Below, one piece after another: positions 9,918 to 30,643 of a DNA stretch of 64,000 bases; the first letter of the stretch is position 1; the number at the start of each line of letters is the position of its first letter. A program made the translations under genes and the position numbers. Source of the DNA: Glycomyces fuscus (GTDB taxonomy: Bacteria; Actinomycetota; Actinomycetes; Streptosporangiales; Streptosporangiaceae); NCBI GenBank assembly GCA_002529455.1, contig NYMS01000011.1, forward strand, positions 40,126 through 104,125. Direction: 5' to 3'. A model generated the notes under the pieces. That model searched no databases, was not told the DNA's origin, and saw only the letters and a program-made list of their open reading frames with translations.

Positions 9918-10227
9918 GGAGCCTTCCGTGGTCGTTGTCGGTACGGTCCAGTGCTGACCCGGGAGGGAAGGGCAGGGTCGATCCTTTGTCCCCCGGCCCG
10001 TGGGGCCGCTGAACGGACCGCCGCCGACGAGGGGGCGTGCATCCGGTCGTTCTCCATGAGACTTGCCTGTCCCCGTCCGGACCAAACCGGGACCGCCCTT
10101 CCGACAAGGGGGCGCGCTCCGTCCTCGCCGTCCGGTTCCGTTTCTCACCGGGTGGACTCGTCCCGGCCCCACGAACGCCGGTGGCCGCGGGCCGCGCCAT
10201 GGCCCGGGCCCACCTGTCCCCGGCTTC

Positions 10228-10302
10228 TGCGGAGGGTGTGGGATTCGAACCCACGAAGCCCCGTTGTGCCGAGGGGGCGTGGCGACCTGTCGACAAACCG
10301 AC
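10228..10302 (-). repeat. tRNA-Ser 3'-end copy 1 (putative att site)
   Basis: Read on the minus strand it ends in a T arm (GTGGG-TTCGAAT-CCCAC) and the acceptor strand ACCCTCCGC of tRNA-Ser, but the 5' half of a tRNA is missing. It matches the copy at 11,759 over 75 bp with five differences. It matches the intact tRNA at 18,732 from the 3' end up to the variable loop. Confidence 0.75.
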
Positions 10303-10355
10303 CAACTGCGTCGTGGCGTCCGGTCCGATCAGGTGGAACCTTGAGCAGAACGCCT

Positions 10356-10391
10356 ATCCATCAAAGTTTCTACCCTTATCCTTTGATGGAT
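10356..10391. promoter_or_regulatory. inverted repeat upstream of the Fic gene (candidate operator)
   Basis: A perfect 11-bp inverted repeat (ATCCATCAAAG, 14-bp spacer, CTTTGATGGAT) ends 26 bp before the Fic start codon, in an AT-rich stretch. It is a likely binding site for a dimeric regulator. The winged-helix-like C-terminus of the Fic protein itself is one candidate for that regulator. Confidence 0.55.
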
Positions 10392-10417
10392 GCCGGTCCG
10401 ATGAAAGGAAAAGACTC

Positions 10418-11710
10418 ATGGCCGCATGGGAGGAGGCGCACTGGGAGTCCAGTGTCGACTCCGGGGTTCCGCGCTCCGCACGGCTCTCGGGGCCCTACCG
10501 CCGCTACGTTCCCGACCTTGTCGACGGCTTCCCCCTGGCGGTCGACGGCGATCTCTCACGACGTGTCGGCGCGGTCGAGCGCAGCATGCGCGCGCTCAAC
10601 GGCCCGAACGCCGAGAACCTGGCCGGTATCGCACGCTTCCTCCTGCGCTCGGAGGCCATCGCCAGTTCCCGGATCGAGGGCATCGCACCATCAGCGCAAC
10701 AGGTCGCGCTGGCCGAGCTCGGCCAATCCGAAGCCGTTCGCGGGGTGAGCGAACAGGCCCGGCTCGTGGCCAACAACATGACGGTCGTGCGCCGGTCAAC
10801 GACCGAACTCGTCGAAGCGGACATGCTGACGGTCGACCACATCGTCGAACTCCACCGGTCGCTGCTCCCCGACCAGGCTCACCACCACGGGCTGCGCACG
10901 GCACAGAACTGGATCGGCGGCTCGAACTGGCACCCCATCGACGCAGACTTCGTCCCCCCGGACCCCGACCAGGTCCCCGCGCTGATGTCCGACCTCGTCG
11001 ACTACGTGAATGGCGCGGCCCACGCCTCGTTGGTCCAGGCCGCCATCGTTCACGCCCAGTTCGAGACGATCCACCCGTTCACCGACGGCAACGGGCGCGT
11101 GGGCCGCGCCCTCATCCATACGGTTCTGGCACGTCGCGGGCTCACCGAGGACGCGGTCCTCCCGATCAGCCTTGTGCTCGCCACCCTGCGGGACCGCTAC
11201 GTCGACGGGCTCGGTGCCTATCGACACGACGCACCGGCGGGGAGCACTGAGGCGAGCGCAGCGGTCAACGCGTGGTTGGAGACCTTCGTCCATGCCTGCG
11301 CCGTCGCCGTCGAACAGTCTGTGGCGCTCATGGGTCAGATAGAGGACCTCCGCTCCGCATGGAACGATCGCCTGTCCGCTCATCGCACGTCCCTGGGGTT
11401 GCGTGCGGTACCCCGGACGGATTCGGCTGTCGCACGCCTGCTGGCACGGCTTCCCGAAGCTCCAGTGGTCACCGCGACGACCCTGTCGAGAATCCTCGGT
11501 GTCTCGTTCCCGGCGGCGAGCGCGGCCCTGGATGAGTTGTGCCGGGCGGAGATCCTCCAGACCAGGTCGATCGAACGCGGTGCCACCGCCTACCTGGCCC
11601 GTGAGGTGCTCGATCTCATCACCCTGGCGGAGCGCGCCTTGGCGAGTACGAGGTTCGACACCAGGGTCTCCACACCGAATCGTCCGGTCCCAGCGCGTCC
11701 GCAGGGCTGA
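10418..11710 (+). CDS. Fic-family protein (class II, N-terminal inhibitory helix)
   Basis: Fic proteins transfer AMP or similar groups from nucleotides to target hydroxyls. The 430-aa product has the full active-site motif HPFTDGNGRVGR at residues 219-230 (catalytic His219). An inhibitory motif S-x-x-x-E-G lies at residues 83-88 (Glu87), so self-inhibition by an N-terminal helix is expected. Residues about 340-420 look like a winged helix DNA-binding domain. The ATG at 10418 has AAGGAAAAG upstream and follows an 11-bp inverted repeat. The gene is bracketed by the two tRNA-Ser-derived repeats, suggesting it arrived as its own cassette. The target is unknown. Confidence 0.9.
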   Translation: MAAWEEAHWESSVDSGVPRSARLSGPYRRYVPDLVDGFPLAVDGDLSRRVGAVERSMRALNGPNAENLAGIARFLLRSEAIASSRIEGIAPSAQQVALAELGQSEAVRGVSEQARLVANNMTVVRRSTTELVEADMLTVDHIVELHRSLLPDQAHHHGLRTAQNWIGGSNWHPIDADFVPPDPDQVPALMSDLVDYVNGAAHASLVQAAIVHAQFETIHPFTDGNGRVGRALIHTVLARRGLTEDAVLPISLVLATLRDRYVDGLGAYRHDAPAGSTEASAAVNAWLETFVHACAVAVEQSVALMGQIEDLRSAWNDRLSAHRTSLGLRAVPRTDSAVARLLARLPEAPVVTATTLSRILGVSFPAASAALDELCRAEILQTRSIERGATAYLAREVLDLITLAERALASTRFDTRVSTPNRPVPARPQG

Positions 11711-11758
11711 CCCGGGGAGTGGTATCCGGGGCAGCCCGAGCCCACCGGCCCCGGGCAT

Positions 11759-11833
11759 TGCGGAGGGTGTGGGATGTGAACCCACGAAGTCCCGTTGTGC
11801 CGAGGGGACTTGGCGACCTGTCGACAAACCGAC
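11759..11833 (-). repeat. tRNA-Ser 3'-end copy 2 (putative att site)
   Basis: A 75-bp near-copy of the repeat at 10,228. The first 37 bp match the intact tRNA-Ser 3' end with one mismatch. Similarity resumes beyond a longer variable loop at GGACTTGG. The variable-arm stem is complementary here (AAGTCCC with GGGACTT), while the 10,228 copy has changes on both sides that mostly keep pairing. Confidence 0.75.
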
Positions 11834-11918
11834 GAAACGCCTTGTGACCTGCACGGATGTTCTGAGGGCTTCCCAGCGCTTCCGGCCCCTTCCCGGAGCC
11901 GTGTGCGATGAATGTGCG

Positions 11919-12128
11919 ATGCGGTGGGGTGCGCTGCTGCGGTCCTGGCGGGCACAGACGTTCGTTCCTTGGGGTTTGGTCGGCGTAGCGTGCGTGGGCG
12001 GGACCGTGTTCATTTTGCTCGCCTCAACCACGACTACAGAAACCATCTGGAACCAAGTACCACGGTTCCGGGCCGAGGTGCCCGTCAGCGCTGGAGTCGG
12101 TCCCCCCAAGACGGTCGTAGCCCGCTGA
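11919..12128 (+). CDS. possible small membrane protein (69 aa), doubtful
   Basis: A short frame with one clear hydrophobic segment (about residues 14-34, VPWGLVGVACVGGTVFILLA) lies between the repeat at 11,759 and the RT operon. No convincing ribosome binding site precedes the ATG. It may be a gene remnant. Confidence 0.25.
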   Translation: MRWGALLRSWRAQTFVPWGLVGVACVGGTVFILLASTTTTETIWNQVPRFRAEVPVSAGVGPPKTVVAR

Positions 12129-12425
12129 CGGGTGCCTCGGGACAGGTGAGCACATCCGTCCGTTTCGGGACCAAAAGCTCTGACATATACGCAGGTCATC
12201 GGGCACGATGGCCTGACTCGGTCAGTTCTGGCCCCCGCTCTGTCGGGCTCGTCCGAGAGAAGTCATCTGATGTGTGGCCTATGGGCACGCTCGGGACCGG
12301 GCGGCAGCCCGCAGCCCGAGCGGCGGCCGAAGGCCGTTGCGACGGCGCTTGCGCCGTCGCCTTGATCTCATACAGCCGAATTCGGCAGAGGCGCTATGAA
12401 GGCTCAAAAAATAGGAATACCTTGA
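12129..12425 (+). other. structured leader region upstream of the RT operon
   Basis: Non-coding DNA preceding the first RT gene. It has GGGC-GGCA-GCCC near 12,300-12,311, then CGGCC-GAA-GGCCG at 12,324-12,336, then a perfect 10-bp stem GCGACGGCGC/GCGCCGTCGC at 12,339-12,360. The last 60 bp become AT-rich and carry the AGGA site for the RT start. It could hold a terminator, the operon promoter or part of a structured RNA. Confidence 0.4.
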
Positions 12426-13769
12426 ATGTCTTTCGATCAAAGTTTCTCTTCGCGAAATATGCGCCGGATCTGGGAGCTGCAAACAAGGAAAGGTATTAAC
12501 CTCGCTGGTTTTTTTGGCGAAGTGAAAAAGAAGCAATATCTGCTTCGTGAATATCGCAAGCAGATCCTAGATGGAAAGAAGAAGGGGAAGTACTCCAGTG
12601 AGCAAGTAAAAAAGGCTTATAAGTGGATCGCCGAGCAAAAGTCTGATCTGGATAAGGAGATCAACAAGGCTTTGGAGCAGACAAGTGAAAAGTTGGCATC
12701 CCTCCTAACGAGCCAGACTTTTGCTTGGGGTTTAAGGTACGAGGGGGACAGGGAGGGTCGACCTCTCTATGGGATAGAGCGCACCCCTGAGGTTTATTTT
12801 GCTGACAAGCAGTTGCAGAGGAACGTTTCTTCTGCAACTGCTAGTCAGCAAAATTCTCGGAGTTCAGCCATATCAGGGCTCGCACAGGCATTGAACAATG
12901 ATATGCCCAAGATGGTAGTGCGAACAGATATCAGATCTTTTTATGAAAGCATAAGTCATGATCTACTGTTCGATTCTATGTCGAGATCTAGTCTAAGTTC
13001 AACATCGCGCTACCTGGTGGAGGGGCTGATTAATGAATATGCTCAAATAACTGGAAGGGATGTTGGCCTTCCAATGGGAGTGGGGGTCAGCTCCCAGTTG
13101 AGCGAGTTATTTATCAGTCAGATAGACCCGCTATTCAAAGTTCAAGAGAATGTCATCTACTATGCTCGCTATGTGGATGACATAGTCCTAGTGTTGGGGC
13201 GTGATGCTAATGAAAAGATTGTAGAGCCCGCAGAGCTGCGAGGTATGAAAAGCGTACTCTCTGAGATGAATCTGTCGATTAGCGAGAACAAGACAGGATG
13301 GACCTCATTTCCTACCGCTGGGAAGTCGACAGTCGATTTTTTGGGTTACACGATTTCCAAAGAGGAAAAAAAGGGGCTGAAGATATGCCTCTCTGCTCGC
13401 CGGGAGAGACTAATCTTGGAGCGTTTGAACAGATCTTTCTCCGCATGGGAAAAATATGGACCAGACAACCATGGCAGAAGGCGTTTGTTGATTGACAGGA
13501 TCAAGTTCTTGACCGGAAACACTCGCCTGGTAAACAATAAGAGGAATGCTATGGTTGGCATCTATTTCTCCAACCCGCATCTAACTGACTTTGAGGCATT
13601 GGAGCGCTTGGATAAGCACTTGCGTAGCTGTATGCAGCAGTACAACCTTCCTCCCGATTTGCGCAAAAAGATTGAGCATATGTCCTTTGAGAAAGGCTTC
13701 AAAGAGCGCCTATTCAATAGGTTTAGTCGGAAACAGCTGAAAGAAATGAAGGGGACATGGAATGCCTAG
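12426..13769 (+). CDS. drt3a: reverse transcriptase, Drt3a-like (first RT of a DRT3-type defence operon)
   Basis: A 447-aa reverse transcriptase. Motif A is VRTDIRSFYESIS (metal-binding Asp168), motif B is GLPMGVGVSSQLSE, and motif C is YARYVDDIVLVLG with YVDD at residues 249-252, so the catalytic aspartates are intact. An N-terminal Lys-rich helical region (residues 25-85) precedes the palm. No group II intron maturase domain or retron RNA was seen. It overlaps a second, larger RT gene by 8 bp. This two-RT arrangement matches DRT3 (UG3 plus UG8 RTs), known as an anti-phage system. Base composition is strongly AT-rich for the host. Assignment to UG3 is by architecture and needs a profile search. 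Confidence 0.85.
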   Translation: MSFDQSFSSRNMRRIWELQTRKGINLAGFFGEVKKKQYLLREYRKQILDGKKKGKYSSEQVKKAYKWIAEQKSDLDKEINKALEQTSEKLASLLTSQTFAWGLRYEGDREGRPLYGIERTPEVYFADKQLQRNVSSATASQQNSRSSAISGLAQALNNDMPKMVVRTDIRSFYESISHDLLFDSMSRSSLSSTSRYLVEGLINEYAQITGRDVGLPMGVGVSSQLSELFISQIDPLFKVQENVIYYARYVDDIVLVLGRDANEKIVEPAELRGMKSVLSEMNLSISENKTGWTSFPTAGKSTVDFLGYTISKEEKKGLKICLSARRERLILERLNRSFSAWEKYGPDNHGRRRLLIDRIKFLTGNTRLVNNKRNAMVGIYFSNPHLTDFEALERLDKHLRSCMQQYNLPPDLRKKIEHMSFEKGFKERLFNRFSRKQLKEMKGTWNA

Positions 13770-15804
13770 AAAGAAGATCAAGGTCCACAAGGGTGACTCA
13801 CGGGTGTTGCTCAGCGACGTACTTCCTTATGAGTTGCCGCCGAGCTACAACAACCTGGGGATGTACCGCTTCTTTAACGAGTGCAAAATCCAATATAGGG
13901 AAGACGGAATATACGCCAAGAAAATAGATTTTTCTACTGATGTGTACCTGTCAATTGTCCTTGGGCGAGTAGTGAAATTTCCTCCAGATTCTCGCGTTGG
14001 CTGCTTTTATAGGGTCACTAGTGCCAAAGATGCACGGGCGGGGACTATCCCATTCCTCTTTACCGTCCGCCATAGAGATAAAGGCTTTCGGACTCTTGCT
14101 GTTCCTCATCCGGCTGCGCAGTTAGAAATAGTAGATTTCTATAGTAGATTTTCAGAGATGATTCTATATCACACATCGAAAAGCCAGTTTTCTTTGAGGC
14201 ATCCGTCTAAGATTGCTCGGTATAGCATGGTGCGTGATGTCCTTTTCGATGATGATCGCGGAGGGGAGGATCTAGTTGAGAATGACCGCAAAGAGTACGA
14301 GTGGCTCCGCTCCTACTTTTCATATAGAAGATACACCAATGTTTATTATTTTTATGATTCAAAAGAATATCGCGAACTTGAGCGCAGGTTTGGTTACTTA
14401 GTCAAAGCGGACATAGCAAAATGTTTCGATAGTATATATACTCATTCTATTGAGTGGGCGACTCACGGAAGGCGGCTTGCCAAGAACAATTTGGGAAGAA
14501 AGTCTAGCGGGAGCTTTGGGAGCGAATTTGATGGGTTGATGCAGCGTCTCAACTATAATGAGACTAGCGGCATAACTATCGGCTCTGAGGTATCTCGTAT
14601 ATTTTCCGAGATAATTCTTCAGGCTATTGATGTGGAGCTTAGGCGAAAGCTCTCTTCATTGGGCATGGAATCCGGATATGATTATAGGATCTTGCGCTAT
14701 GTGGACGACTATTTTATTTTCATGGCGGATCCGAAAAAGCGCCTAGTGATCTTGGAGCAATTGTCCAGATGCCTTCGTGCTTACAAGCTTCATTTGAACA
14801 CCTCCAAAGAAGAGGGGAAATCAACTCCCTGGCTCTCTCCGTTGAGCGTTGCAAAGCATGAAGTGAATGAACTAATCCAACGGGGGGCTGCAATATTTTT
14901 GGAGGACAGTGGTGTATCTTCAGTGCCTCGGGCCTTTGCGAAAGCCAACCAGCTGGTAACGCTGTATAAGGGTGTATTGATAGATACGGGCGTTGAGCAT
15001 TATGACCTTGCTAACTACACCCTGGCGCGATGCGAGCGGGCGATCGAAAAAGTTGTCAAGCGCACAAAAAATATCCTTAGGAAGAAGGATATAGCGTACT
15101 CTCATGCTGTGGAAGTTTCCAGGTCTGCTACAGTCACGGTATTGAATTTTCTTGAGTTTATGTTTTTCGCTTATTCGGGTGCCCCCAGGATGAGCCCAAC
15201 AGTCAAGTTGGCGCGTGCTATAAGCCTCGTCCTCCGCTATTCAAGACTTAAAGGGGTGCCAAAACATGACAAGGAAGAGATTGAGGTCTTTTTTCGTGAA
15301 GAGCTGACCGCACAACTAAGGAGGGTTAGTCAGACACAAACACCGGACGCTGTTACAGCTACACTAGTTGATTGCTTTACTGATCTCGGTACAGATTTTT
15401 TGCTGTCAGAAAATGAGCTATCTAGATTTTTTGGTTTTCTTGAAGACGGAGGAGGCGAGATTGCTTACCCGGATGAAATGAATTCTATAATCCTCTTCAG
15501 TATTCTATTGCATATCCGCGATGCGGAGGGTTATGAATTTTTGCGCAAGGCTTGCGAAAAATGGATATGGGATATTCAAGTTAGGGGCCCAAGGGATGGA
15601 GAGTTGGCCATTGTGAATCTAAATATTATATCGTGTCCCTATGTTCCGGATTCTCTCAAGGCTGGGATTCTGAGGAGTTATAATATTTTCGACCGCGGCG
15701 TAGTCGGGAATATCATTTCTCAAGGCAAAGGGTGGAATGTCTCTTGGCGAGACTTTGACCTCTACGCGACGCTTCAGCGTAAGCGGATGCATGATGTATA
15801 CTGA
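13762..15804 (+). CDS. drt3b: reverse transcriptase, Drt3b-like (second RT of a DRT3-type defence operon)
   Basis: A 680-aa protein. The RT palm is visible from about residue 90 to 350: motif A is VKADIAKCFDSIY (Asp217), and motif C is RYVDDYFIFMA with YVDD at residues 313-316. A C-terminal region of about 330 residues without recognised domain follows, rich in helices. The ATG lies inside the end of the first RT gene (GAAGGGGACATGGA upstream), so translation is coupled. In the known DRT3 systems both RTs and a non-coding RNA are required. The stop codon is followed directly by a structured segment containing CACACAC. AT-rich codons mark it as acquired. Confidence 0.85.
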   Translation: MPRKKIKVHKGDSRVLLSDVLPYELPPSYNNLGMYRFFNECKIQYREDGIYAKKIDFSTDVYLSIVLGRVVKFPPDSRVGCFYRVTSAKDARAGTIPFLFTVRHRDKGFRTLAVPHPAAQLEIVDFYSRFSEMILYHTSKSQFSLRHPSKIARYSMVRDVLFDDDRGGEDLVENDRKEYEWLRSYFSYRRYTNVYYFYDSKEYRELERRFGYLVKADIAKCFDSIYTHSIEWATHGRRLAKNNLGRKSSGSFGSEFDGLMQRLNYNETSGITIGSEVSRIFSEIILQAIDVELRRKLSSLGMESGYDYRILRYVDDYFIFMADPKKRLVILEQLSRCLRAYKLHLNTSKEEGKSTPWLSPLSVAKHEVNELIQRGAAIFLEDSGVSSVPRAFAKANQLVTLYKGVLIDTGVEHYDLANYTLARCERAIEKVVKRTKNILRKKDIAYSHAVEVSRSATVTVLNFLEFMFFAYSGAPRMSPTVKLARAISLVLRYSRLKGVPKHDKEEIEVFFREELTAQLRRVSQTQTPDAVTATLVDCFTDLGTDFLLSENELSRFFGFLEDGGGEIAYPDEMNSIILFSILLHIRDAEGYEFLRKACEKWIWDIQVRGPRDGELAIVNLNIISCPYVPDSLKAGILRSYNIFDRGVVGNIISQGKGWNVSWRDFDLYATLQRKRMHDVY

Positions 15805-15910
15805 AGGTGCGCCCGAGCATCCCTCTAAGGGGCACACACCAGCGCGTAGCGGAAGGCTCGGTAGACCGCTGTTTCGGCGGGGAATCGCCAGATTCCCCGC
15901 CGGGGCGAAA
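15805..15910 (+). ncRNA. candidate DRT3 non-coding RNA with CACACAC segment
   Basis: Immediately downstream of the second RT gene. Possible pairing: CCGAGC 15813-15818 with GCTCGG 15856-15861, enclosing a small hairpin CCCT-CTA-AGGG at 15821-15831 and then unpaired CACACAC at 15833-15839. A perfect 11-bp stem with a 6-nt loop (15875-15902) closes the 3' side and may act as terminator. My recollection is that in characterised DRT3 systems an ACACAC stretch of the ncRNA templates poly(GT) synthesis. If that holds, this is the template. Ends are approximate and no expression evidence exists here. Confidence 0.6.
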
Positions 15911-15963
15911 ATTCATCAGGCGGATCCATGGTACTAGCTTTCTGGTCATGTTCACAGGCTGGC

Positions 15964-16419
15964 CTACCATGTAGAGGTCAGCTGCACGCCGTTATGTGTT
16001 CGGACATGCGGAGCTGCAGGGCTGTGTGCGTCGAGCAGTCGAATCGCGTAGGCCTCTGACATACGGTCTGATGCCTGTGCGGAAGTGATCCATTCGACGG
16101 CTGCGGACTCCGAGGTTGTTAGCTCTACACCGCCGGATGGCTTGCATCGGAAGACGAGGGCGACGATTCCGCGGGCCATGTTCTTGTAAACGCCCGTAAG
16201 CTGCTCCACCTCGACGCGGATGCCGGTCTCCTCCAGGACCTCGCGGACAACACCCTCCTGCGGGGTCTCGTTCAACTCCAGTACGCCGCCTGGCGGCTCC
16301 CAGTTGCCGTTGTCCCTGCGCTTGATCACCAGCATCCGTCCGTCCTCGCGGATGACGGCTCCCGCCACGGACACGGAGTGCAGCGGCGTTGACGGCTTGT
16401 CTCCGGTGCTGTTACTCAT
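15964..16419 (-). CDS. NUDIX hydrolase (Pif-like position next to GntR)
   Basis: A 151-aa NUDIX protein. The Nudix box reads GGVLELNETPQEGVVREVLEETGI (shown in parts: GGVLELNETPQEG, then REVLEETGI), an intact GX5EX7REUXEEXGU pattern that binds Mg2+ for diphosphate hydrolysis. It is divergent from a HutC-type GntR regulator. The same pairing (Nudix Pif and GntR KorSA) controls the integrative element pSAM2, so this may be an element-maintenance or immunity gene; that is inference. An alternative ATG lies at 16431. Neither start has a Shine-Dalgarno sequence, so the message may be leaderless. Confidence 0.85.
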   Translation of the reverse strand: MSNSTGDKPSTPLHSVSVAGAVIREDGRMLVIKRRDNGNWEPPGGVLELNETPQEGVVREVLEETGIRVEVEQLTGVYKNMARGIVALVFRCKPSGGVELTTSESAAVEWITSAQASDRMSEAYAIRLLDAHSPAAPHVRTHNGVQLTSTW

Positions 16420-16429
16420 GTGCAGGAGC
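16414..16429. promoter_or_regulatory. degenerate GntR operator overlapping the NUDIX start
   Basis: ACTCAT-GTGC-AGGAGC has one perfect and one 4-of-6 half-site of the ACTCAT-N4-ATGAGT motif found twice at 17,280-17,330. It covers the NUDIX start codon and lies 21 bp upstream of the GntR start, consistent with autoregulation. Confidence 0.4.
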
Positions 16430-16449
16430 ATAGGAGGAACAGAAGGACT

Positions 16450-17229
16450 ATGGCGAGCACTGTAGGGGCGCGGTCCGCGAAGCCCCGGTACCTCCAGATC
16501 GCGGACGACATCGAAGAGCAGATCAGAGCCGGGCGGCTGGCTCCTGCTGAGGAGATCCCGAGTGAGACCGCGCTGATGGAGCGCTACGGCGTCTCCTCGG
16601 GCACGGTCCGCAAGGCCGTGGCCCAGCTCCGCACGACCGGCCTGGTGGAGACCTACCAGGGCAAGGGCTCCTTCGTGAAGTCCCGGCCTCCGGTCACCCG
16701 CAAGTCCTCCGACCGTTTCCGGCGCTCACACCGCCGTGCGGGCAAGGCGGCCTACATCGCCGAGACCGAACAGGCCGGGGTCAAGCCCACCGTTCAGGTC
16801 CTCTCCATCGGGCCCGTTCCCGCTCCCGCCGAGATCGCTGAGCGCTTGGGCGTGGACGAGGGCGACAAGGTGCTTGCCCGCCGTCGCCTCTACTTCAGCG
16901 ACGGCACCCCCGCCGAGGAAGCGACCTCCTATCTGCCGTGGGGCGTGGCGCGGGACATCCCCGAACTCTTCGAGGAAAACCCCGGCGGTGGTGGCATCTA
17001 TGCCCGGCTGGAGGAACACGGGCACGAGTTCGCCGAGTACACCGAGACCGTGCGGGCGCGCCTGGCCACCAAGCAGGAGGCAAGTGCCCTGAGCCTGAGC
17101 CCCGGCTCCGCGATCATCCATCTGACGCGCAACGCCGTGACGACGGTCGGCCGTGTGGTGGAGGTGTGCGACACGATCATGGCCGCTGACCAGTTCGTGC
17201 TCGACTACCGCATCCCCGCCACGGACTGA
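16450..17229 (+). CDS. GntR-family regulator, HutC/UTRA subfamily (KorSA-like)
   Basis: A 259-aa protein. The winged helix domain covers residues 12-80 (PRYLQIADDIEEQIRAGRL, SETALMERYGVSSGTVRKAV, TYQGKGSFV). A UTRA ligand-binding domain covers about 105-255 (VLARRRLYFSDGTPAEEATSYLP, and SPGSAIIHLTRNAV). The start at 16450 follows AGAAGG and AGGAGG. HutC-type GntR proteins repress transfer genes in actinomycete integrative elements. The palindromes ACTCAT-N4-ATGAGT downstream of this gene are its likely operators. The ligand is unknown. Confidence 0.9.
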   Translation: MASTVGARSAKPRYLQIADDIEEQIRAGRLAPAEEIPSETALMERYGVSSGTVRKAVAQLRTTGLVETYQGKGSFVKSRPPVTRKSSDRFRRSHRRAGKAAYIAETEQAGVKPTVQVLSIGPVPAPAEIAERLGVDEGDKVLARRRLYFSDGTPAEEATSYLPWGVARDIPELFEENPGGGGIYARLEEHGHEFAEYTETVRARLATKQEASALSLSPGSAIIHLTRNAVTTVGRVVEVCDTIMAADQFVLDYRIPATD

Positions 17230-17279
17230 GGCATCCAGCTCCTGCCTCCTCGGGCAAGCTTCTGTGCTCCAAAAGGTTG

Positions 17280-17330
17280 ACTCATGTACATGAGTGAGGC
17301 AACCTAATCTCACAACTCATATAAATGAGT
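17280..17330. promoter_or_regulatory. two GntR-type operators (ACTCAT-N4-ATGAGT)
   Basis: Two sites with identical half-sites: ACTCAT-GTAC-ATGAGT (17280-17295, perfect palindrome) and ACTCAT-ATAA-ATGAGT (17315-17330), 35 bp apart centre to centre. The first overlaps a possible -35 element TTGACT (17277-17282). The second contains the ATG of the next small gene. This suggests the upstream GntR protein represses a leaderless promoter here. Confidence 0.65.
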
Positions 17331-17606
17331 GCATGTGACGAGCCTATGTATAGGGGATGTTCTGTGGTCCGTTGGTGTGAGCGGCGTGCTGGCCACCTGG
17401 CGAAGCGGCGCGCCACATGTCCCCCTGGAGCGTGCTTGGTGGATGCCGCCGTCTCTGAACCGAAGCGGTGCAGGTCCTGTCGTGGACGCGGACGCAAAAC
17501 CGTCCGCTCTCGGCGATTGGTAGTGCTGCGCTCCTCGACCACACGGGAACCGGCGACACGCGTCGTGGCGCGCACCGCGTGCCGGGGGACCGGTACGGAC
17601 TCCTGA
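17325..17606 (+). CDS. small Cys/Arg-rich protein (93 aa)
   Basis: The frame begins at the ATG inside the second operator, so translation would be leaderless. It contains CRSCRGRGRK (CxxCxGxG, as in a DnaJ-type zinc-binding half-site) and several other Cys (positions 4, 12, 18, 32, 36). The C-terminal half is basic. I do not recognise a family; a nucleic-acid-binding zinc protein is conceivable. Coding status rests on operator position and the CxxCxGxG motif. Confidence 0.45.
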   Translation: MSACDEPMYRGCSVVRWCERRAGHLAKRRATCPPGACLVDAAVSEPKRCRSCRGRGRKTVRSRRLVVLRSSTTREPATRVVARTACRGTGTDS

Positions 17607-17735
17607 CGCACAAGGGCGGAGAACGCTCCGGCCGGATGGCTACCGGTCATCGGAGCAACCGCCTACAGACAACTGACCCCCGCGACGCGGGCTAGGCATC
17701 CGGGGGCGCGGCCAACCTGAGGAAAGCAGGCTGAC

Positions 17736-18092
17736 GTGAGCGACCTTATCGCCCTGATTCGGGCTTGGGTGACTCTGATTCGACCGACACGACACGGCAG
17801 GCACCACCGCACCGGCCCCCGGCCCTACTACCTGCCCACACCAGCGCGGGTGGAGCTGTGGCCCGCACCGGACCCCATCGTGATGGACACGGGCGACCCC
17901 CGCGCCTACTCCCTCCAACGCGGCCCCTACACCCACCTGGAGAACCGGCGCCGCGCACAGCGGGCCGAACGGGACCGGCGGGGGATCGACCTGCTGGTGC
18001 AGATCGCGCGTTCGACTCCCGCCCTCGACGACATGGCCGAGTTGCGTGACCTGGTGCGCACAGCCATCGCGGTCGGCGCGGTGCGGCGATGA
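17736..18092 (+). CDS. small hypothetical protein (118 aa), coupled to next gene
   Basis: GTG start with GAGGAAAGCAGG upstream. The N-terminal 20 residues are amphipathic and hydrophobic (LIALIRAWVTLIRPTRHGRH). A Pro/Tyr segment and an Arg-rich helix (RRRAQRAERDRRG) follow. The stop overlaps the next ATG (ATGA). The arrangement parallels 8708-9067, including the GAAAGCAGGC leader. Function unknown. Confidence 0.6.
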   Translation: MSDLIALIRAWVTLIRPTRHGRHHRTGPRPYYLPTPARVELWPAPDPIVMDTGDPRAYSLQRGPYTHLENRRRAQRAERDRRGIDLLVQIARSTPALDDMAELRDLVRTAIAVGAVRR

Positions 18093-18520
18093 CCACCGAA
18101 TCCTCCACACCGATCGCCGACCGGGAGACCCTGACCGCCTGGGCAGGGGAACAGGGCGTGCGGGTGCGCGTCTCCGCCGAGGACTGGGACTCCATCACCT
18201 ACGAAGCCCTCTCCATCGGCCCGGACGGAACCCCGCTGGTGGAGCGGTACCGGTGCGTGCTGCCCGTGTCCCTCGCGCTGCGGCGTCTGCGGCTGACCTA
18301 CGTCGTCGGGCTCTGCCACGACGCGGGCGGGGCGGCGTGCAACCACGTCCGCCGGGTCGTGCCCCCGGTGCTCTCGGCCCCTGACAAGGCCGCCCGTCAT
18401 GACGTGGCGCTGGTCGCGGCGGCACTGGTGGAGTCCGAACGCCGGGCGGTGTGCGGGGCGACGGTGGACAACCTCACCGTCTACACCGTCCAGCGCGCCC
18501 AGGACTGGCAACCCTTCTGA
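18089..18520 (+). CDS. small hypothetical protein (143 aa)
   Basis: ATG overlaps the preceding stop. The sequence has a mixed alpha/beta look, two Cys in the segment LCHDAGGAACNHVRR and one further on (RRAVCGAT). No family is recognised. It is the last gene of the island before a cruciform-type repeat and tRNA-Ser, and is probably controlled by the KorSA-like regulator. Confidence 0.65.
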   Translation: MTTESSTPIADRETLTAWAGEQGVRVRVSAEDWDSITYEALSIGPDGTPLVERYRCVLPVSLALRRLRLTYVVGLCHDAGGAACNHVRRVVPPVLSAPDKAARHDVALVAAALVESERRAVCGATVDNLTVYTVQRAQDWQPF

Positions 18521-18548
18521 GGGGCCTTCCCACGGCGCTTCGTAAACC

Positions 18549-18598
18549 CCCGCGTGCCCTGATGTCTCTTCGAGACCACGGGGCCCAGGGCACGCGGG
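18549..18598. terminator. long inverted repeat (terminator or cruciform) near island end
   Basis: A 13-bp perfect outer stem (CCCGCGTGCCCTG with CAGGGCACGCGGG) encloses a second hairpin GTCTC-TTC-GAGAC. It lies 28 bp after the last small gene and before the tRNA, and probably terminates that unit. Confidence 0.6.
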
Positions 18599-18731
18599 CC
18601 CACTCCGGGCCGGGAACACCGAAGGCCGGTGGCTACCCGGGCTGTGTGCGACCAACGTGCCACGGGCCCGGACCACCGGCCCTCGCCGTGTTCCGTGGAA
18701 GGCTCCCACCTGGGGAAACTCCCTGGTTCTG

Positions 18732-18820
18732 CGGAGGGTGTGGGATTTGAACCCACGAAGTCCCGTCAAGGACTTGGTGCTTTTCAAGAGCACTGCACTC
18801 GGCCGCTATGCGAACCCTCC
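18732..18820 (-). tRNA. tRNA-Ser (anticodon TGA)
   Basis: An 89-nt class II tRNA. The acceptor is GGAGGGT/ACCCTCC with discriminator G. The anticodon arm is GTGCT-CTTGAAA-AGCAC, giving TGA. There is a long variable arm (AGTCC/GGGACT) and a T arm GTGGG-TTCAAAT-CCCAC. CCA is not encoded. Its 3' end faces the island and is duplicated in part at 11,759 and 10,228. Confidence 0.95.
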
Positions 18821-18953
18821 CCGCGGAGAGCGACTCTCCGCCCCGTCATGGTAGCCCACACCCCCGCGCTCGTGCGGCCCGCCCGGGAACCCGTTTCCCC
18901 TCCCGGGACACGGGGGTGGCGCCTCCAGGTTACTCGGCAGTAACATGGGGGCC

Positions 18954-19421
18954 ATGGCACACATGAACGCCGAGACGGCGGAGACGGTCAAGTCCGGCTT
19001 CCTGGCCGCGGTCCCCTTCGTCCGGACCCTCGGCCTGACCTTCACCGACCTGGACCACGGGCGCGCCGTCATGCGCCTGCCCGACAACGCCGACCACCAC
19101 AACCACGTCGGCGGCCCCCACGCGGGCGCCATGTTCACCCTGGCCGAGTCCGCCTCCGGGGCCGTCATCATCGCCACCTTCGGCGACCAGCTCGACCGGG
19201 CCGTGCCCCTGCCGACCACCTCCACGATCGACTTCCTCAGGATCGCGACGGGCGACCTGACCGCCGAGGCCGTCCTGGGCCGCCCGCGCGAGGAGATCGT
19301 CGCCGAGCTGGACGAGGGCAGGCGCCCCGAGTTCCCCGTCAACGTCGAACTGCGCACCGAGGACGGCACCGTCACCGGCCGCATGAGCATCACCTGGACC
19401 CTGCGCCCCAACCGCAAGTAG
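18954..19421 (+). CDS. hotdog-fold protein, DUF4442/PaaI-like thioesterase
   Basis: A 155-aa hotdog-fold protein. The central helix segment (HNHVGGPHAGAMFTLAESASG) resembles the HGG-A-L-A-E pattern of PaaI-type thioesterases, with Glu in the expected catalytic region. An acyl-CoA thioesterase activity is plausible but unproven. Starts at 18945, 18954 and 18963 are all possible; 18954 is chosen for the G-rich stretch just upstream. Confidence 0.8.
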   Translation: MAHMNAETAETVKSGFLAAVPFVRTLGLTFTDLDHGRAVMRLPDNADHHNHVGGPHAGAMFTLAESASGAVIIATFGDQLDRAVPLPTTSTIDFLRIATGDLTAEAVLGRPREEIVAELDEGRRPEFPVNVELRTEDGTVTGRMSITWTLRPNRK

Positions 19422-23066: not shown

Positions 23067-23934
23067 CACGTCCTCCAACTTCGCGCCCTCCGGGACCGCC
23101 GGTGCCGTCCGATCGCGGCATGCTCTCTAGCAACCTACGGCCCGGACCCCGGCTTCCGCAGCCCTCCGCCCGGTGTACGTGCCCGGTCCCACAGGGAGTT
23201 CACGGCCCACGGCGTACGTGCTCGGGACGCGGTGGCCGTCCGGGCGCGTCCGCCCCTTCGGGGGACGCGCCGGTCCGGGGGCGTTCCGCGCACCGCTGGA
23301 GAAAGAGCGCAAGAGGCCCGAAAGGCTTCGAAAGAGAACGCCCGCGGCGTCCGGGCCGCGGGCCTCCCGGGAGGGCGGCGCGATCGCGCCCCCCGAGGCC
23401 GGTGATTTCCCCGATTTCGGGGGGCGGGGGGAACGACCGGTTGACGTCCTTCGTTTCCCGGAAGGCCGGAAGGGGTGCGGCCTCCCGGCCCGCCGGAGGA
23501 CGTTTCCCCTGTTCGGCGCCCTGTCCTGTGCGCGGGGGTGCGCGGGGCACGGCGCCGTCGCACGCCACGTGAACGGGCTCTGACCGTCCGCAACCGGCCA
23601 ACCGCTGGCTTCGGCGGACCCCGCCGGTTAAGGATGGCGTGGCCCCCGGACCGCCTTCGCCACACCGATTTCGGCGCTGAAAGAAGACTGAAAGCGGAGT
23701 GGAAGAGGATCTCTCTAGTGTGGAACACGTTCGACGCGTTCGGACCCGCGAGAGGACGGCTTGCGGGTCCGGCAGAGTGCGACGTTCGTTGGACACATGC
23801 CACCCGTGGTGTGCTTTGAGGCGGAACCCGCCACGGGTGGCCAGTCCGCCGGAAGGCGGGTTCCCTTGATGCTTCGTAGACGACGTAGGGCTACCTTGCG
23901 GCTCTACGCGAGTGCCGTGAGAAGAGGAGTCCGA
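23067..23934. other. 868-bp intergenic region without a clear gene
   Basis: Several short frames on both strands lack ribosome binding sites and family features. The right half (about 23,650-23,930) is AT-richer and probably holds the promoter of the peptide gene at 23,935. A possible GAAC-ACGTTC element sits near 23,724. I see nothing else that can be supported. Confidence 0.5.
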
Positions 23935-24120
23935 GTGCCGAAGATGCTGACCATGGACGCGGAGTTCGAGGCGATCGTCGCCGGCGTCGCCCCCGAGGCG
24001 AAGGCGGTCCCCTACCAGGAGCCGAGCCCGGTCAACCCCGTGCCCGCTGAGACGAGCCCCGAGAAGGCCGCGCCCGCCGAGGCCGCGCCCGCCGAGGAGA
24101 AGCCCGCTCAGGAGGAGTAA
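23935..24120 (+). CDS. 61-aa Ala/Pro/Glu-rich peptide upstream of SARP regulator
   Basis: GTG start with GAGGAG 8 bp upstream. The product begins PKMLTMDAEFEAIVAGV, then carries a Pro/Ala/Glu-rich tail with short repeats (PAETSPEKAAPAEAAPAEEK). No signal peptide, Cys residues or obvious modification core. The gene ends just before a large stem-loop and an AfsR-like regulator. It may be a small partner or signal of that regulator, but this is speculation. Confidence 0.55.
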   Translation: MPKMLTMDAEFEAIVAGVAPEAKAVPYQEPSPVNPVPAETSPEKAAPAEAAPAEEKPAQEE

Positions 24121-24137
24121 CTCCTTTTCGGTGCAGT

Positions 24138-24188
24138 CCAACGGTGACTCCGAGTACCTGGGTGGAGGGGGGTACTCGGAGCCGTTGG
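24138..24188. terminator. 18-bp stem-loop between peptide gene and SARP gene
   Basis: An outer 7-bp stem (CCAACGG/CCGTTGG) and inner 11-bp stem (CTCCGAGTACC/GGTACTCGGAG), separated by a 3-nt bulge, have a 12-nt G-rich loop. It lies 17 bp after the peptide stop and 52 bp before the regulator start. It may be a terminator or attenuator. Confidence 0.7.
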
Positions 24189-24240
24189 CATGCCCGTATT
24201 CCCTATTTCGTGCGAATGGCCCTTGCTAGGGTTGCTGCTT

Positions 24241-27240
24241 GTGGAATTCGGCGTGCTCGGCCCCATCACTGTCTGGGCGGACGGCCGGCCTGTGCAGGTC
24301 GGTGGTCCGCGCCAGCTCTGTGTGCTGGGAGCGCTGCTGGTCCACCTGGGCCGCGAGGTCACCATCGAGCAGCTCATCGGCTACCTCTGGAGCGACGACC
24401 CGCCCCGTACCGCCCGGTCCGTGATCCAGGTGCAGATCTCCCATCTGCGCAGGGCGTTCCCGGGCAGCATCTCCACGACATCCGGGGGCTACACACTCGA
24501 GGTCGACCCGGACTCCGTCGACCTGCACCGCTTCCGCAGGCTCCGGGACAGAGCCGCCGCGGCTGAGCCCAAGGCGGCCGTCGAACTACTGGAACAGGCG
24601 CTGGAGTGCTGGCGCGGCACCCCCTTCTCCGGTGTCGGCTCGGAGTACCTGGACTACACCGTCGTGGCCCCCCTGCGTGAGGAGCGCTGGTCCTGCGTGA
24701 TCGCCTGGGCCAACTGCGCCCTGGAGTTGGGCCGGCACTCCGACGTGGTCACACGGCTGACGTCCCTGGCCAGTGAGGAACCCTTCGGTGAGCGCCTGCA
24801 CCACCTGCTCATCACGGCCCTGTGGCGCGGCAACGAACGGGCCAGGGCGCTCTCCGTCTACGAGGACTTCCGGGCCAGGCTCGCCGATGAGCTGGGCGTC
24901 GACCCCGGGCCGGAGCTGACCGCCCTGCACACCCGCATCCTTCAGGAGGACCTTCCCGAGGAGGCGGCGGAGGACCGGTCCGAGGAGGAGGCCGGAGAAC
25001 GCTTCGTGGTACGCAACGACCTTCCCCGGGACCTGCCCGACTTCACCGGCCGCCACGAATCGCTGCGTCAGCTGGACGAGGCGGCCCGTGCCGGGGAGGA
25101 CCGCGCCCAGGTCTGCGTCATCACGGGCAGCGGCGGTGAGGGGAAGACGACCACCGCGGTCCGCTTCGGTTACGAGGCGGCCAAGCGCTACCCCGACGGG
25201 CAGCTGTTCATCGACCTGTACGGCTACACGACGGACAGGGAGCCGCTCGACGCCACGTCCGCGCTCGGCGCCCTGCTGCGCGCCGTCGGCGTCGAGCCCG
25301 AGGCCGTGCCCGAGTCCCTCGATGAACGGTCGGCGTTGTGGCGGGCCACCCTCATGGGGCGCCGCGTCCTGGTCATCCTCGACAACGCGTTGAGCTACGC
25401 CCAGGTCAGCCCGCTCCTGCTGTCCTCCCCGGGGTCGATGACCCTCATCACGACCCGCAACGAGCTCTCCGGCCTCAGCGGTGCCCGTTTCTTCTCCCTC
25501 GGGGTGTTCGACGAACACTCCTCCCTGGAACTGCTCGGGCGTGTCCTGGGTGACGAACGCGTACGGCGGGAGCTGGAGCACGCGCGCGAGATCATCCGGA
25601 TCTGCGGCGGCCTCCCCCTCGCCCTGCGCGTGGTGGCCGGACGTATGCTCAGCCGCCCCAAGTGGTCGTTCGCGCACGTCGCACGCCGACTCGGCGAACA
25701 GAACCGGAGGTTCCACGAGCTCCAGGTCGAGGGGCAGAGCGTCGAGGCCGCCATCGACCTGTCCTTCCAGAGCCTCAACCGGAACCAGAGCCGTACGTTC
25801 CTCCTGCTGGGCCTGATGATCGGCAACACGATCGACCTCGGCGGCGCGTCCGCCCTCCTGGACATGTCCGTGGAGGACGCGGACGACATCCTCCAGGAGC
25901 TGGTCGGGGTGTGCCTGCTGGAGGAGCCCCAGGGGGACGTGTACCGCCTGCACGACCTCATCGGCGCCTTCTCCCGCGACCGCGCGGCCACGGTCCTGAG
26001 CGGCGGGGAGATAGAGGCGGCTCGGCTCCGCCTCGCGGAGCAGTACATGGCGACCGCCCAGCAGGCCGCCGACCTCATGGGTCCGCGCGCGCATGACGAT
26101 GTCGAGGTGAACCCCGGTTACCGCATCGAGTTGTCCGGAAGGGAGGACGCGGAGAACTGGTTCACCCTCCACCAGGAGAACCTGTCGGAAACGATCGAGT
26201 ACTTCGCCTCGCAGGACAACGGCGAGTACGCCTGGCGGATGGCCGACGCGGTGTGGCGCTTCTACGCCCTCCACGGCCAGATGGGCCTGTTGATCAGTTC
26301 TCATCAGCGAGTACTCCAGATCAGCGACAAGCAGGGAAACCGGCGCGGACGCGCGGTGACCCTCATCGGGCTCGGTATCGCCTACTGCCTCTCAGGGCGC
26401 TTCGAGGAGTCCCTGGGGCTCCTCACCGAGGCCAGGGACCTGCTCACGGCCATCGGCGACAGCAGAGGGACCATCCGGGCGCTGGCCAACCTGGGTGTGG
26501 TCTACGAGCGCGTCGGACGCCTCGCGGACGCCGCCGAGGCCTTCGAGGGAGTGCTCGACCACGCGATCCAGCTGGGGGACGCCCGGCTGGAGGCGTTGCA
26601 GTGGGGCAACCTCGCCCTCGTGAAGCAGTCACTCGGGAGGTACGCGGAGGCGTTGCACTGCGCCGGGCAGGCCGCCGCGAAGGTCGTCGGTGAGGACCAG
26701 AACGAGGCCAGGATCCAGGCGAAGCGCATCATGGGAGAGGCCCGTACCGGCCTGGGAGAGCTGGAGGCCGCCTTCTCGGACCTGAACGAGGCGCTGGAAC
26801 TGTCCGTGCGTCTGCACCTGGTGAGCAACCAGATCTACGTGCACAACGCCCTGGGCATAGCCCACCGGGCGGCGCAGGCCTGGGACGAGGCCGTCGAGTC
26901 CCACGTCGAGGCCCTCTCGCTCGCGGAGAAGTCGGGCCACCGCAGCGGCGACGCGGAGATCCGCACCGACCTGGGGATGACCTACGCGGCCGCCGGACGC
27001 CACGGCGAGGCCCTGTCCGAGCTGGAGGGGGCCCACGCCATCGCGGTGGAGCGCAGCGAGCGCTACATGGTCGCCCGCGCCGCGCTCGCCCTCGGGCACC
27101 TGCCCGAACCGGCCATGGCGGCGGACCGGGCGCGGGACTTCCTCCGCGAGGCCGAGGAGATCTTCACCGAGCTGGGGCTGCCCGAGGCGGAACAGGCCAG
27201 GAAGGCCCTGAAGGACAACCCGCCCGGGCCCCTCGGCTGA
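24241..27240 (+). CDS. AfsR/SARP-family regulator with NB-ARC and TPR domains
   Basis: A 999-aa signal-integrating activator. Residues 1-90 are an OmpR-like winged helix (VEFGVLGPITVWADGRPVQ, then PRQLCVLGALLVHLG). Residues 95-240 form the bacterial transcriptional activation domain (ALELGRHSDVVTRLTSLASE, then PFGERLHHLLITALW). Residues about 265-560 are an NB-ARC ATPase with P-loop GSGGEGKTT (Lys302) and GGLPLALRVVAG. From about residue 690 a TPR array follows. The same layout occurs in AfsR of Streptomyces, where it controls secondary metabolism. GTG 24241 gives the usual SARP N-terminus; an upstream ATG at 24190 would add 17 residues. No biosynthetic cluster is adjacent. Confidence 0.93.
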   Translation: MEFGVLGPITVWADGRPVQVGGPRQLCVLGALLVHLGREVTIEQLIGYLWSDDPPRTARSVIQVQISHLRRAFPGSISTTSGGYTLEVDPDSVDLHRFRRLRDRAAAAEPKAAVELLEQALECWRGTPFSGVGSEYLDYTVVAPLREERWSCVIAWANCALELGRHSDVVTRLTSLASEEPFGERLHHLLITALWRGNERARALSVYEDFRARLADELGVDPGPELTALHTRILQEDLPEEAAEDRSEEEAGERFVVRNDLPRDLPDFTGRHESLRQLDEAARAGEDRAQVCVITGSGGEGKTTTAVRFGYEAAKRYPDGQLFIDLYGYTTDREPLDATSALGALLRAVGVEPEAVPESLDERSALWRATLMGRRVLVILDNALSYAQVSPLLLSSPGSMTLITTRNELSGLSGARFFSLGVFDEHSSLELLGRVLGDERVRRELEHAREIIRICGGLPLALRVVAGRMLSRPKWSFAHVARRLGEQNRRFHELQVEGQSVEAAIDLSFQSLNRNQSRTFLLLGLMIGNTIDLGGASALLDMSVEDADDILQELVGVCLLEEPQGDVYRLHDLIGAFSRDRAATVLSGGEIEAARLRLAEQYMATAQQAADLMGPRAHDDVEVNPGYRIELSGREDAENWFTLHQENLSETIEYFASQDNGEYAWRMADAVWRFYALHGQMGLLISSHQRVLQISDKQGNRRGRAVTLIGLGIAYCLSGRFEESLGLLTEARDLLTAIGDSRGTIRALANLGVVYERVGRLADAAEAFEGVLDHAIQLGDARLEALQWGNLALVKQSLGRYAEALHCAGQAAAKVVGEDQNEARIQAKRIMGEARTGLGELEAAFSDLNEALELSVRLHLVSNQIYVHNALGIAHRAAQAWDEAVESHVEALSLAEKSGHRSGDAEIRTDLGMTYAAAGRHGEALSELEGAHAIAVERSERYMVARAALALGHLPEPAMAADRARDFLREAEEIFTELGLPEAEQARKALKDNPPGPLG

Positions 27241-27255
27241 CGGTCCCGGCCGGCC

Positions 27256-28101
27256 CTAGCCGACGGCTCCGCCCGCCCCCTGGCGTGGACCCGGACCCGA
27301 ACGGCGCCGCGGCGGTCCCAGCCAGCGCGGCCCCAGGGTCCCGCGCCGCATGGTCCACAGGCACAGCGTGGCGGGCAGGACCCGCACCGGCCGGGGGACG
27401 TACGGGTAGACCGCGCGGGTCGTCCGCACGATCCGGTCGAAGCGGCGCTGACGCGCCTTCGACCACGGGATCGCGAACCGCTCGCGCAGGTCCGGCGGGA
27501 GCAGCCCGCCGGTGAGCAGGAGCTGGACCCGCATCAGCGGGCGCAGGGGCGCGCTCGCCGGGTGGAACAGCTGCCCGGTGATGTCGCGGGCCTCCTCTCC
27601 CACGTCCAACCGGGCCAACGCCTTGTCCCAGTAGGCGGCGAACTCCTCGGGGGAGGCGGGCCACCTCTCCTCGGGCAGGCCCAGGGCGGTGGCGAACACC
27701 GACGCCTCGCGCAGGTGGAGGGCGCGCTCCTCCTCGCCGAGCTCGCCGAACACCATCGCGTGCAGGCGCGAGGCGGACTGGAACAGGGTGGCGGCCACCC
27801 ACAGCAGGAGGTCGTCGTCCAGGGCCCGGTAGCCGGGGCCGTTCACCTTGCGGTGCAGCGCGCGCACGATGGCGTGCAGGCGCCTCCTCTCCTCCTCGGT
27901 GCCGTAGACCGTGCCGTACACGAAGTAGAGGGTGCCGAGCAGGCGTTCGAACGGCCGGGAGGAGAAGTTGCTGTGGTCGTACACCCCGCGGGCGACGCCG
28001 GGGTGGGCGATCTGGAGCAGGACGGCGTACCCCGCGCCGCCGAGGACGCAGGCCTCCGCGCTGATCCGTCGCAGGGGTGACTGGTCGGAGGGTCGGCCCA
28101 T
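27256..28101 (-). CDS. DUF2236 (MpaB/latex-clearing-like) oxygenase family protein
   Basis: A 281-aa protein of the ER-bound oxygenase MpaB/DUF2236 group. Visible features: QIAHPGVARGVYDHSNF near residue 29 (His of QIAHPGVA is a candidate haem ligand), FVYGTVYGTEEERRR, and the VWVA-like segment LLLWVAATLFQSASRLH. Members bind b-type haem and oxidise hydrophobic substrates; the substrate is unknown here. It precedes nothing on the same strand within 16 bp and converges with the SARP gene. Confidence 0.85.
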   Translation of the reverse strand: MGRPSDQSPLRRISAEACVLGGAGYAVLLQIAHPGVARGVYDHSNFSSRPFERLLGTLYFVYGTVYGTEEERRRLHAIVRALHRKVNGPGYRALDDDLLLWVAATLFQSASRLHAMVFGELGEEERALHLREASVFATALGLPEERWPASPEEFAAYWDKALARLDVGEEARDITGQLFHPASAPLRPLMRVQLLLTGGLLPPDLRERFAIPWSKARQRRFDRIVRTTRAVYPYVPRPVRVLPATLCLWTMRRGTLGPRWLGPPRRRSGPGPRQGAGGAVG

Positions 28102-28203
28102 GCCTGGGATCGTACGGCACCCCGCCCGCCCGGGCGGAGGGGCACGCCTCCGCGGGGCGCGTACCCGTCCGCCGGCCCGGACACGCACCGGCGCGGGTAC
28201 GGC

Positions 28204-30339: not shown

Positions 30340-30493
30340 GACACCCCGTCCTCCCCCGGCCCGGTCCCGCACCCGGGCCGGGGGAGCGGCGTTTGCCCGG
30401 CCCTTCCCGCAGGGAGGCCTCCCGGGGCGCCGCCGCGGAGGCGGCGCCCTCCGGAAACGACGAGGGCCGGTCCCGTAGGACCGGCCCTCGTGC

Positions 30494-30570: not shown

Positions 30571-30643
30571 AAGCAACGTCCACAAGTCTAGCGGACGCCG
30601 GGAGTGCTCGCGCACGCTTTCGCGACCGGAGCGCGCGGGAGGG

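Follow-up and report, generated by a model that had tools for sequence, protein, structure and literature searches.

The stretch of DNA analysed here (the window: 64,000 nucleotides of contig NYMS01000011.1 from the actinobacterium Glycomyces fuscus) contains an operon of two reverse transcriptase (RT) genes, followed by a short segment predicted to encode a structured RNA with a template for one of them (Table 1). The initial annotation, made from the sequence alone, had described two overlapping RT genes of 447 and 680 residues within an AT-rich insertion and had matched them to the UG3+UG8 architecture of DRT3, a description which has stood up: the two frames, drt3a and drt3b, overlap by 8 nt, and the GC content of the operon is 45.6%, against 67-68% in its flanks. 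Both active sites are intact, as had been stated, with the YVDD motif at residues 249-252 in Drt3a and 313-316 in Drt3b and the motif A aspartate at D168 and D217, respectively. The best profiles for the two proteins are Drt3a and Drt3b, in PADLOC and NCBIfam alike. Drt3a reaches 297.3 bits with NF041747 (curated cut-off of 200) and an E-value of 4e-94 with the PADLOC profile, and Drt3b reaches 527 bits with NF041748 (cut-off of 350), RVT_1 being the sole Pfam match of each. Judged by these sequence profiles, 12426-15804 is a DRT3 operon.

Structure prediction, which had been suggested for each protein, is consistent with the assignment of Drt3a and Drt3b to different RT classes, the predicted fold of Drt3a being closest to DRT9 and that of Drt3b to DRT4, DRT6, UG15 and AbiK, although the TM-scores of the best matches are modest (0.39-0.56) and the comparison is therefore to be read at the level of the class only. 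The fold library ended in April 2026, and among the 50 best matches seen neither 9z6y nor 26cz, the solved Drt3b structures discussed below, was present. The best matches are not to group II intron, retron or diversity-generating retroelement (DGR) RTs, nor do the two proteins share one non-DRT clade, the two outcomes that the initial annotation had set against its own proposal.

Table 1. Features of the DRT3 locus and of the element around it, in window coordinates
Feature	Positions	Strand	Basis
drt3a, class 2 (UG3) RT, 447 aa, YVDD	12426-13769	+	NF041747; PADLOC Drt3a; nearest fold DRT9
drt3b, class 1 (UG8) RT, 680 aa	13762-15804	+	NF041748; alignment to solved Drt3b chains; residue census
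Predicted DRT3 non-coding RNA core and 3' hairpin	15809-15907	+	fold z -3.8, helix end, covariation; predicted bounds
P1, 5' strand GCGC (pairs with 15842-15845)	15809-15812	+	compensatory changes in the non-actinobacterial set only
Pseudoknot, 5' strand CCGAGC (pairs with 15856-15861)	15813-15818	+	permutation test, pair count
P2 hairpin adjoining the template on its 5' side, proposed boundary element	15820-15832	+	see text
CACACAC, predicted Drt3a template for poly(dTdG)	15833-15839	+	AC-run survey
P1, 3' strand GCGC	15842-15845	+	pairing with 15809-15812
P3 hairpin; loop bears pseudoknot 3' strand GCTCGG (15856-15861)	15848-15870	+	covariation, pairing
P4, 17-bp G+C-rich hairpin, no U tract; first base shared with P3	15870-15907	+	fold z, helix end
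Element left end, in blocks also found in the elements of two same-genus relatives	11734-12387	.	blastn
Cargo segment (DRT3, its RNA, last bases of the NUDIX gene)	12388-16027	.	no match in either relative's element
NUDIX hydrolase, element backbone	15964-16431	-	domain search
GntR/UTRA regulator, element backbone	16420-17229	+	domain search
tRNA-Ser(TGA), likely integration site	18731-18820	-	copies of its 3' end elsewhere in the window

What the initial annotation had passed over is the RNA template. Between the drt3b stop codon and the sequence motif CACACAC of the window there are 28 nt, and motifs of this kind recur at the loci surveyed: all 100 DRT3 loci with a Drt3b above 300 bits have, no more than 300 nt from the stop of drt3b, a stretch of alternating A and C that is 6 nt long or longer, against 10.5% of dinucleotide shuffles. 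At a distance of 25-60 nt from the stop, a 6-nt run is present in 79 of the 100, against 1.2% of shuffles. As controls, the stretches upstream of drt3a contain such a run in nine of 90 cases (three of 90 at 25-60 nt) and those 300-600 nt downstream in two of 97 (none of 97 at 25-60 nt). In six further actinobacterial loci (L150-L154 and L159) the run is 6 or 7 nt long. The survey drew on collections of species genomes and of viruses and comprised 124 loci, namely that of the window's own genome (L001), 80 from the genome collection and 43 further ones; after removing L001 and L101-L124 (below 300 bits or with no Drt3b match), 99 loci plus the window remained. These loci are not independent of one another, and since those from the genome collection are the best 80 of 361 obtained with a query near the window, the share of loci with a layout like that of the window is biased upward.

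The segment downstream of drt3b, already described as structured, has a more stable predicted fold than any of 200 shuffled versions (z -3.8); the final helix stops close to the boundary of 15910 given at that time. Where the template is near the stop, the RNA core has a common layout (hereafter short), consisting of the 5' strand of P1 (GCGC), a segment of 6-8 nt, the P2 hairpin, the AC template, the 3' strand of P1 (GCGC) and then hairpins, one of which bears in its loop the complement of the 6-8 nt segment. The window RNA follows this order from P1 to its second strand, with the partner of the pseudoknot strand in the loop of P3, the hairpin that immediately follows P1. The template would accordingly be enclosed in a compact predicted pseudoknot, whose helices covary across relatives.

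Two sets of relatives bear on these helices. From the 83 loci with a run within 100 nt of the stop, an alignment (A4) of 71 non-actinobacterial cores was obtained by leaving out six actinobacterial loci (the window included), three atypical ones (L023, L031 and L080) and three duplicate sequences. P1 and P2 are paired in 92.8% of its cells, 80 cells being changed on both sides vs 21 in shuffles, and P1 has double changes at four of five pairs. P2 is thus supported in these 71 relatives; in the window it was recognised by eye, and it lies outside the actinobacterial count. The crossing pairing was evaluated by comparing each locus's segment against its own loop zone with the same segment against the loop zones of other loci. 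For 69 non-actinobacterial loci (A4 minus two with a gap in a P1 column), the mean score was 15.1 vs 12.3 (sd 0.27), with none of 10000 permutations as high, and the same holds with one locus for each of the 28 segment motifs (14.4 vs 10.9; 0/10000). A run of at least five pairs, G-U allowed, is found in 66 of the 69, for instance UCAUUC/GAAUGA in L049, UCAUCC/GGAUGA in L053 and UUCGCUU/AAGCGAA in L029. In actinobacteria, ten of 11 loci tested can form the knot with at least four Watson-Crick pairs (CCAGGC/GCCTGG, CTCTCGGG/CCCGAGAG and ATGACGC/GCGTCAT among them), and the alignment-free permutation test on these 11 loci, independent of the MAFFT register, gave a score reached by two of 10000 permutations (six of 10000 without the near-copy L003). 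The pair count on the actinobacterial alignment (A5; ten loci, L152 left out) resulted in a covariation of 0.268 vs 0.124, with none of 500 shuffles as high, and P3 and the pseudoknot helix, which cross each other, are changed on both sides at three of five and four of six pairs, respectively. These counts understate the pseudoknot, because MAFFT misregisters it in L005, L151 and L153.

Several results weigh against the pseudoknot, and part of them favour its main competitor, namely that the operon is DRT3 and its RNA an arrangement of ordinary nested hairpins, in which CCGAGC and GCTCGG form a plain long stem, P1 and P3 do not form alongside it and the template is unknotted. The minimum-energy fold, in a calculation where no knot is possible, takes precisely that form, containing the pseudoknot helix and not P1, and P1 is almost invariant in actinobacteria, with no double (compensatory) change. 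Furthermore, R1, a covariance model of the core that was built from non-actinobacterial loci only so that the window RNA could serve as a held-out case, fails to recognise this RNA: there is no match there in a search of the 64-kb window, and scored locally on the RNA the model gives 2.7 bits and rank four. Applied to 11 other actinobacterial loci, R1 finds four at E-values of 0.03-0.08 and one at 0.35, and misses six. In the actinobacterial set the number of pair types is at chance level, 111 of 500 shuffles reaching it, L152 is devoid of the pseudoknot, and no clear knot is seen in a twelfth actinobacterial locus, L154, whose Drt3b is under the cut-off and has a C-terminus other than VY. Against the reading of the locus as a whole stands a promoter scan at chance level, with five sites vs 3.8 expected. 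Against nested hairpins stand the double changes of the crossing P3 and pseudoknot helices within actinobacteria, those of P1 outside them and a crossing pairing which beats all permutations there, and we consider that alternative improbable. Given that R1 misses the window and finds five of the 11 others weakly, the actinobacterial RNA is best regarded as a divergent form of the pseudoknotted RNA, recognised by its layout and pairing. At its 3' side, P4 is likely the end of the RNA or a terminator; a terminator scan found no more sites than chance.

Since the DRT3 family and its mechanism are already known, the novelty of the locus rests on the pseudoknotted RNA architecture. No description of a pseudoknot in a DRT3 RNA was found among the titles of a literature search mostly outside subscription journals, and the word is absent from the main text of PMC13174585. 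Being small and open to direct test, such a knotted RNA would serve as a model for the repeated copying of a short template by a bacterial RT, beside DRT10 and telomerase. As far as the available text of PMC12632851 goes, both DRT10 and telomerase RNA resemble the window RNA in having a short repeat template, a stem-loop boundary on its 5' side and repeat copying, and telomerase RNAs are described there as using a stem-loop or a pseudoknot as template boundary. The RT family, the template and the gene set differ; the likeness is one of layout only.

Measured from the first base of the stop, the longest AC run starts within 100 nt at 83 loci (at 31 nt for the window) and farther away at 17, and both Drt3b of solved structure belong to loci of the far kind. 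The Drt3b of L087 aligns over its full length with the 9z6y chain (1332 bits), and its locus has the AC run at 126 nt; the Drt3b of L094 matches 26cz in the same manner (1488 bits), with the run at 131 nt. We take PDB 9z6y/9z6z to be the E. coli DRT3 of Deng et al. 2026, on account of E26 and R253 in the alignment and the accessible portions of PMC13314766 and PMC13213688, and 26cz to be the EcoDRT3 of PMC13174585, on account of residue numbering. The first of these systems has the same two families in the same order as the window and an AC template downstream of drt3b; its E26 and R253 correspond to E24 and R279 of the window, although the two Drt3b are only about 28% identical (through L087). 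For EcoDRT3, identity is about 30% (through L094). In a tree of 38 Drt3b, a fully supported branch sets apart the seven far-layout loci included; when only the actinobacterial and far-layout groups are compared, the 11 actinobacterial loci are set apart in the same way, with the long-branched L152 placed outside the other ten. The distance from the stop is by itself an imperfect marker of layout, since L038 (Bacteroidota, run at 133 nt) clusters with short-layout kin. A broader proposition, for and against which the scales stand about level, is that a large DRT3 branch spanning Actinomycetota, Pseudomonadota and Bacteroidota uses a compact RNA with its template in a telomerase-like pseudoknot just past the drt3b stop, unlike the solved long type, and is policed by nucleases of the AdnAB/AddAB type in hosts free of RecBCD.

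Some individual loci deserve mention beside these layouts. The actinobacterial Drt3b of L152 and L153 are very divergent, with end branches of 2.8 and 2.5; L152 retains ACACAC without the pseudoknot, and L153 retains both. An E. coli plasmid (CP083496, L186) carries a DRT3 RNA of the short layout, in which CACACAC lies at 44 nt, counted from the start of the stop codon; the drt3b region is annotated there as two separate genes.

Regarding the proteins, the available text of PMC13174585 reports that in E. coli DRT3 the alternation of dA and dC by Drt3b needs E22 and R241, with R71 assisting and Y666 serving as primer. By alignment to the solved Drt3b chains, E24, R110 and R279 of the window protein occupy the places of E22, R71 and R241, its C-terminal Y680 sits in the invariant tyrosine column of Y666, and D182, F187 and the YVDD motif of EcoDRT3 have counterparts as well. 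In a census of 97 uninterrupted Drt3b frames, the window included and three interrupted ones (L093, L099 and L100) left out, the positions of R71, D182, F187, R241 and Y666 are unchanged in all 97, and that of E22 is glutamate in 95 and aspartate in two. Those two loci, L095 and L098, still have an AC template, and among the 100 DRT3 loci none was found with another template repeat, such as might track changes at E22 or R241. Template and side chains are in this way conserved together (AC run in 100/100 loci; arginine at 241 and glutamate or aspartate at 22 in 97/97 frames), which suggests that the two halves of the system are locked to one repeat. It is this property, a protein rather than a nucleic acid dictating the sequence of DNA, that makes DRT3 of general interest.

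Taken together, we assign a probability of roughly 0.8 to the reading that the locus is a DRT3 operon predicted to defend against phages via poly(TG)/poly(CA) double-stranded DNA, in which one RT likely copies the CACACAC of a putatively pseudoknotted RNA and the other likely templates by its side chains. DRT3 is further characterised by an alternating GT/AC double-stranded product, a 6:6:6 complex and protection from phages. Following the available accounts of E. coli DRT3 (PMC13174585) and, for the boundary, also of DRT10 (PMC12632851), Drt3a would read CACACAC from its 3' end towards the 5' end of the template, where P2 would halt it; the TG product would then slip back, re-anneal and be extended anew, giving poly(dTdG). 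For Drt3b, Tyr680 would be the starting point of a strand in which dC and dA alternate, and this strand would anneal to poly(dTdG) to form the duplex.

Which enzyme might keep such a product in check? In E. coli, according to the accessible part of PMC13174585, the nuclease RecBCD holds the DRT3 product low, and the phage protein Gam triggers the defence. The RecC profile PF04257 has no match in the window's genome (the E. coli control being positive), nor in seven of eight other actinobacterial DRT3 hosts (it is present in G695); it is found in four of four gammaproteobacterial hosts and in none of four others, that is, no match in 12 of the 17 DRT3 hosts examined. Contig C31 of the window's genome (G000) encodes, within 23500-33500 (L185), two adjacent proteins with UvrD and PDDEXK_1 domains, a tandem that we take to be the make-up of AdnAB. 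Without a RecC match and with this AdnAB-like pair, the model of RecBCD as guard cannot hold literally in this host, and the guard, if any, is more likely AdnAB: the product would be cleared by an AdnAB-like helicase-nuclease, and a phage that interfered with this enzyme would let the duplex accumulate and arrest growth. Hosts without RecC thus make the guard model testable in RecBCD-free cells.

The initial annotation had regarded both the host and the position next to a tRNA-Ser as unusual. The tRNA gene is indeed there, 2.9 kb downstream of the operon, and the part about the host has to be given up, because NCBI names Drt3a or Drt3b in several actinobacterial genera (Leifsonia, Paraoerskovia, Agromyces, Cellulosimicrobium and Nocardiopsis, among others). 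The nearest listed proteins are 99% copies, one of them named by NCBI 'antiviral reverse transcriptase Drt3a [Nocardiopsis sp. HUAS JQ3]', so that this type of operon was already annotated in Nocardiopsis. Its distribution is sparse: matches above the cut-off occur in one of 396 genomes of the phylum and one of 298 of the window's family (in each case the window's own), in five of 398 of the Herbiconiux family, and in two of 245 and one of 221 in two other families. Searches for close relatives on plasmids and phages found none, with 207 and nine matching records, respectively, all below 60% identity, of which five and none cover 80% of the query.

The surroundings of the operon point to a mobile element. 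Copies of the 3' end of tRNA-Ser are present at 10219-10264 and 11759-11795. All 31 genomes of the genus, the window's own among them, have a match to the tRNA region, and in five (G570, G631, G634, G672 and G681) the tRNA end is repeated on the same contig at a distance of 11.8-13.3 kb. At 4551-17330 of L180 and 2111-14870 of L181, related elements were observed at the same tRNA-Ser, with an otherwise common backbone and different defence-like cargo: the place of DRT3 is taken in L180 by a GmrSD_N-type protein (NsnA-like), among other genes, and in L181 by an AAA ATPase, with an AspBHI/Mrr-type (methyl-directed) restriction enzyme nearby; in a third relative, L182, the site is nearly empty. 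The right module, 16028-18601, is common to the window and L181 (NUDIX and GntR genes), and 17669-18601 to the window and L180. The tRNA site, the repeated tRNA 3' end and the NUDIX and GntR genes are those of a pSAM2-type actinomycete element, which the DRT3 operon would occupy as cargo. Unlike such an element, the window copy is devoid of integrase, replication and transfer genes, and it is therefore likely the remnant of a mobile element rather than a mobile member of the type. In L180, Pfam identifies a tyrosine integrase, RepSA and an FtsK-like gene, and L181 has frames of similar length and, by eye, of near-identical sequence. The block of L180 that holds these genes (10636-17154) is absent from the window, and its loss here, rather than a gain elsewhere, seems the better account. 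At the junction 18594-18601, where the window is without 6.5 kb of L180, there is an alignment overlap of 8 nt, as a deletion through microhomology would leave.

This loss is also the starting point of a second alternative, by which DRT3 is a passenger of a decaying element, its mobility genes gone and its cargo intact merely since the loss is recent. The absence of L180's integrase, RepSA and FtsK-like genes and the presence of a 28-nt palindrome within drt3a speak for it; against it, both frames are open, all key residues and the RNA template are intact and a 99%-identical pair is present in another genome record, on a contig (6.81 Mb) that exceeds the entire assembly of the window (6.56 Mb), and we regard this alternative as very unlikely. 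With DRT3 as a defence operon in the cargo slot, the setting illustrates one way in which these operons may reach actinobacteria. That the genes belong to another RT system altogether (a retron, a group II intron or a DGR pair), the AC run that follows them being a coincidence, is scarcely credible, and such candidates were rejected, in agreement with the initial annotation, which had considered retron and group II intron unlikely: the two RTs have weak secondary matches to the group II intron model (72 and 38 bits, cut-off of 300) and to the retron RT model (far below its cut-off), an Rfam scan of 10000-19000 found neither retron (msr/msd) nor intron RNA families, and the recurrence of the AC run at 25-60 nt across loci is far above that of shuffles.

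The palindrome in drt3a, at 12796-12854, has 28-nt arms that are 93% perfect and is the sole hairpin with arms of at least 20 nt in a scan of the window; none of 98 other drt3a genes has one with arms above 15 nt. Its first arm codes for a conserved motif and the second falls in a variable stretch whose length is unchanged, and for these reasons it looks like a template-switch (quasipalindrome) event. Finally, a Fic gene (SoFic in PADLOC, Fic in Pfam) is found within 10218-11846. Flanked by the two repeats of the tRNA-Ser 3' end, it forms another small cargo, stacked next to the DRT3 element.

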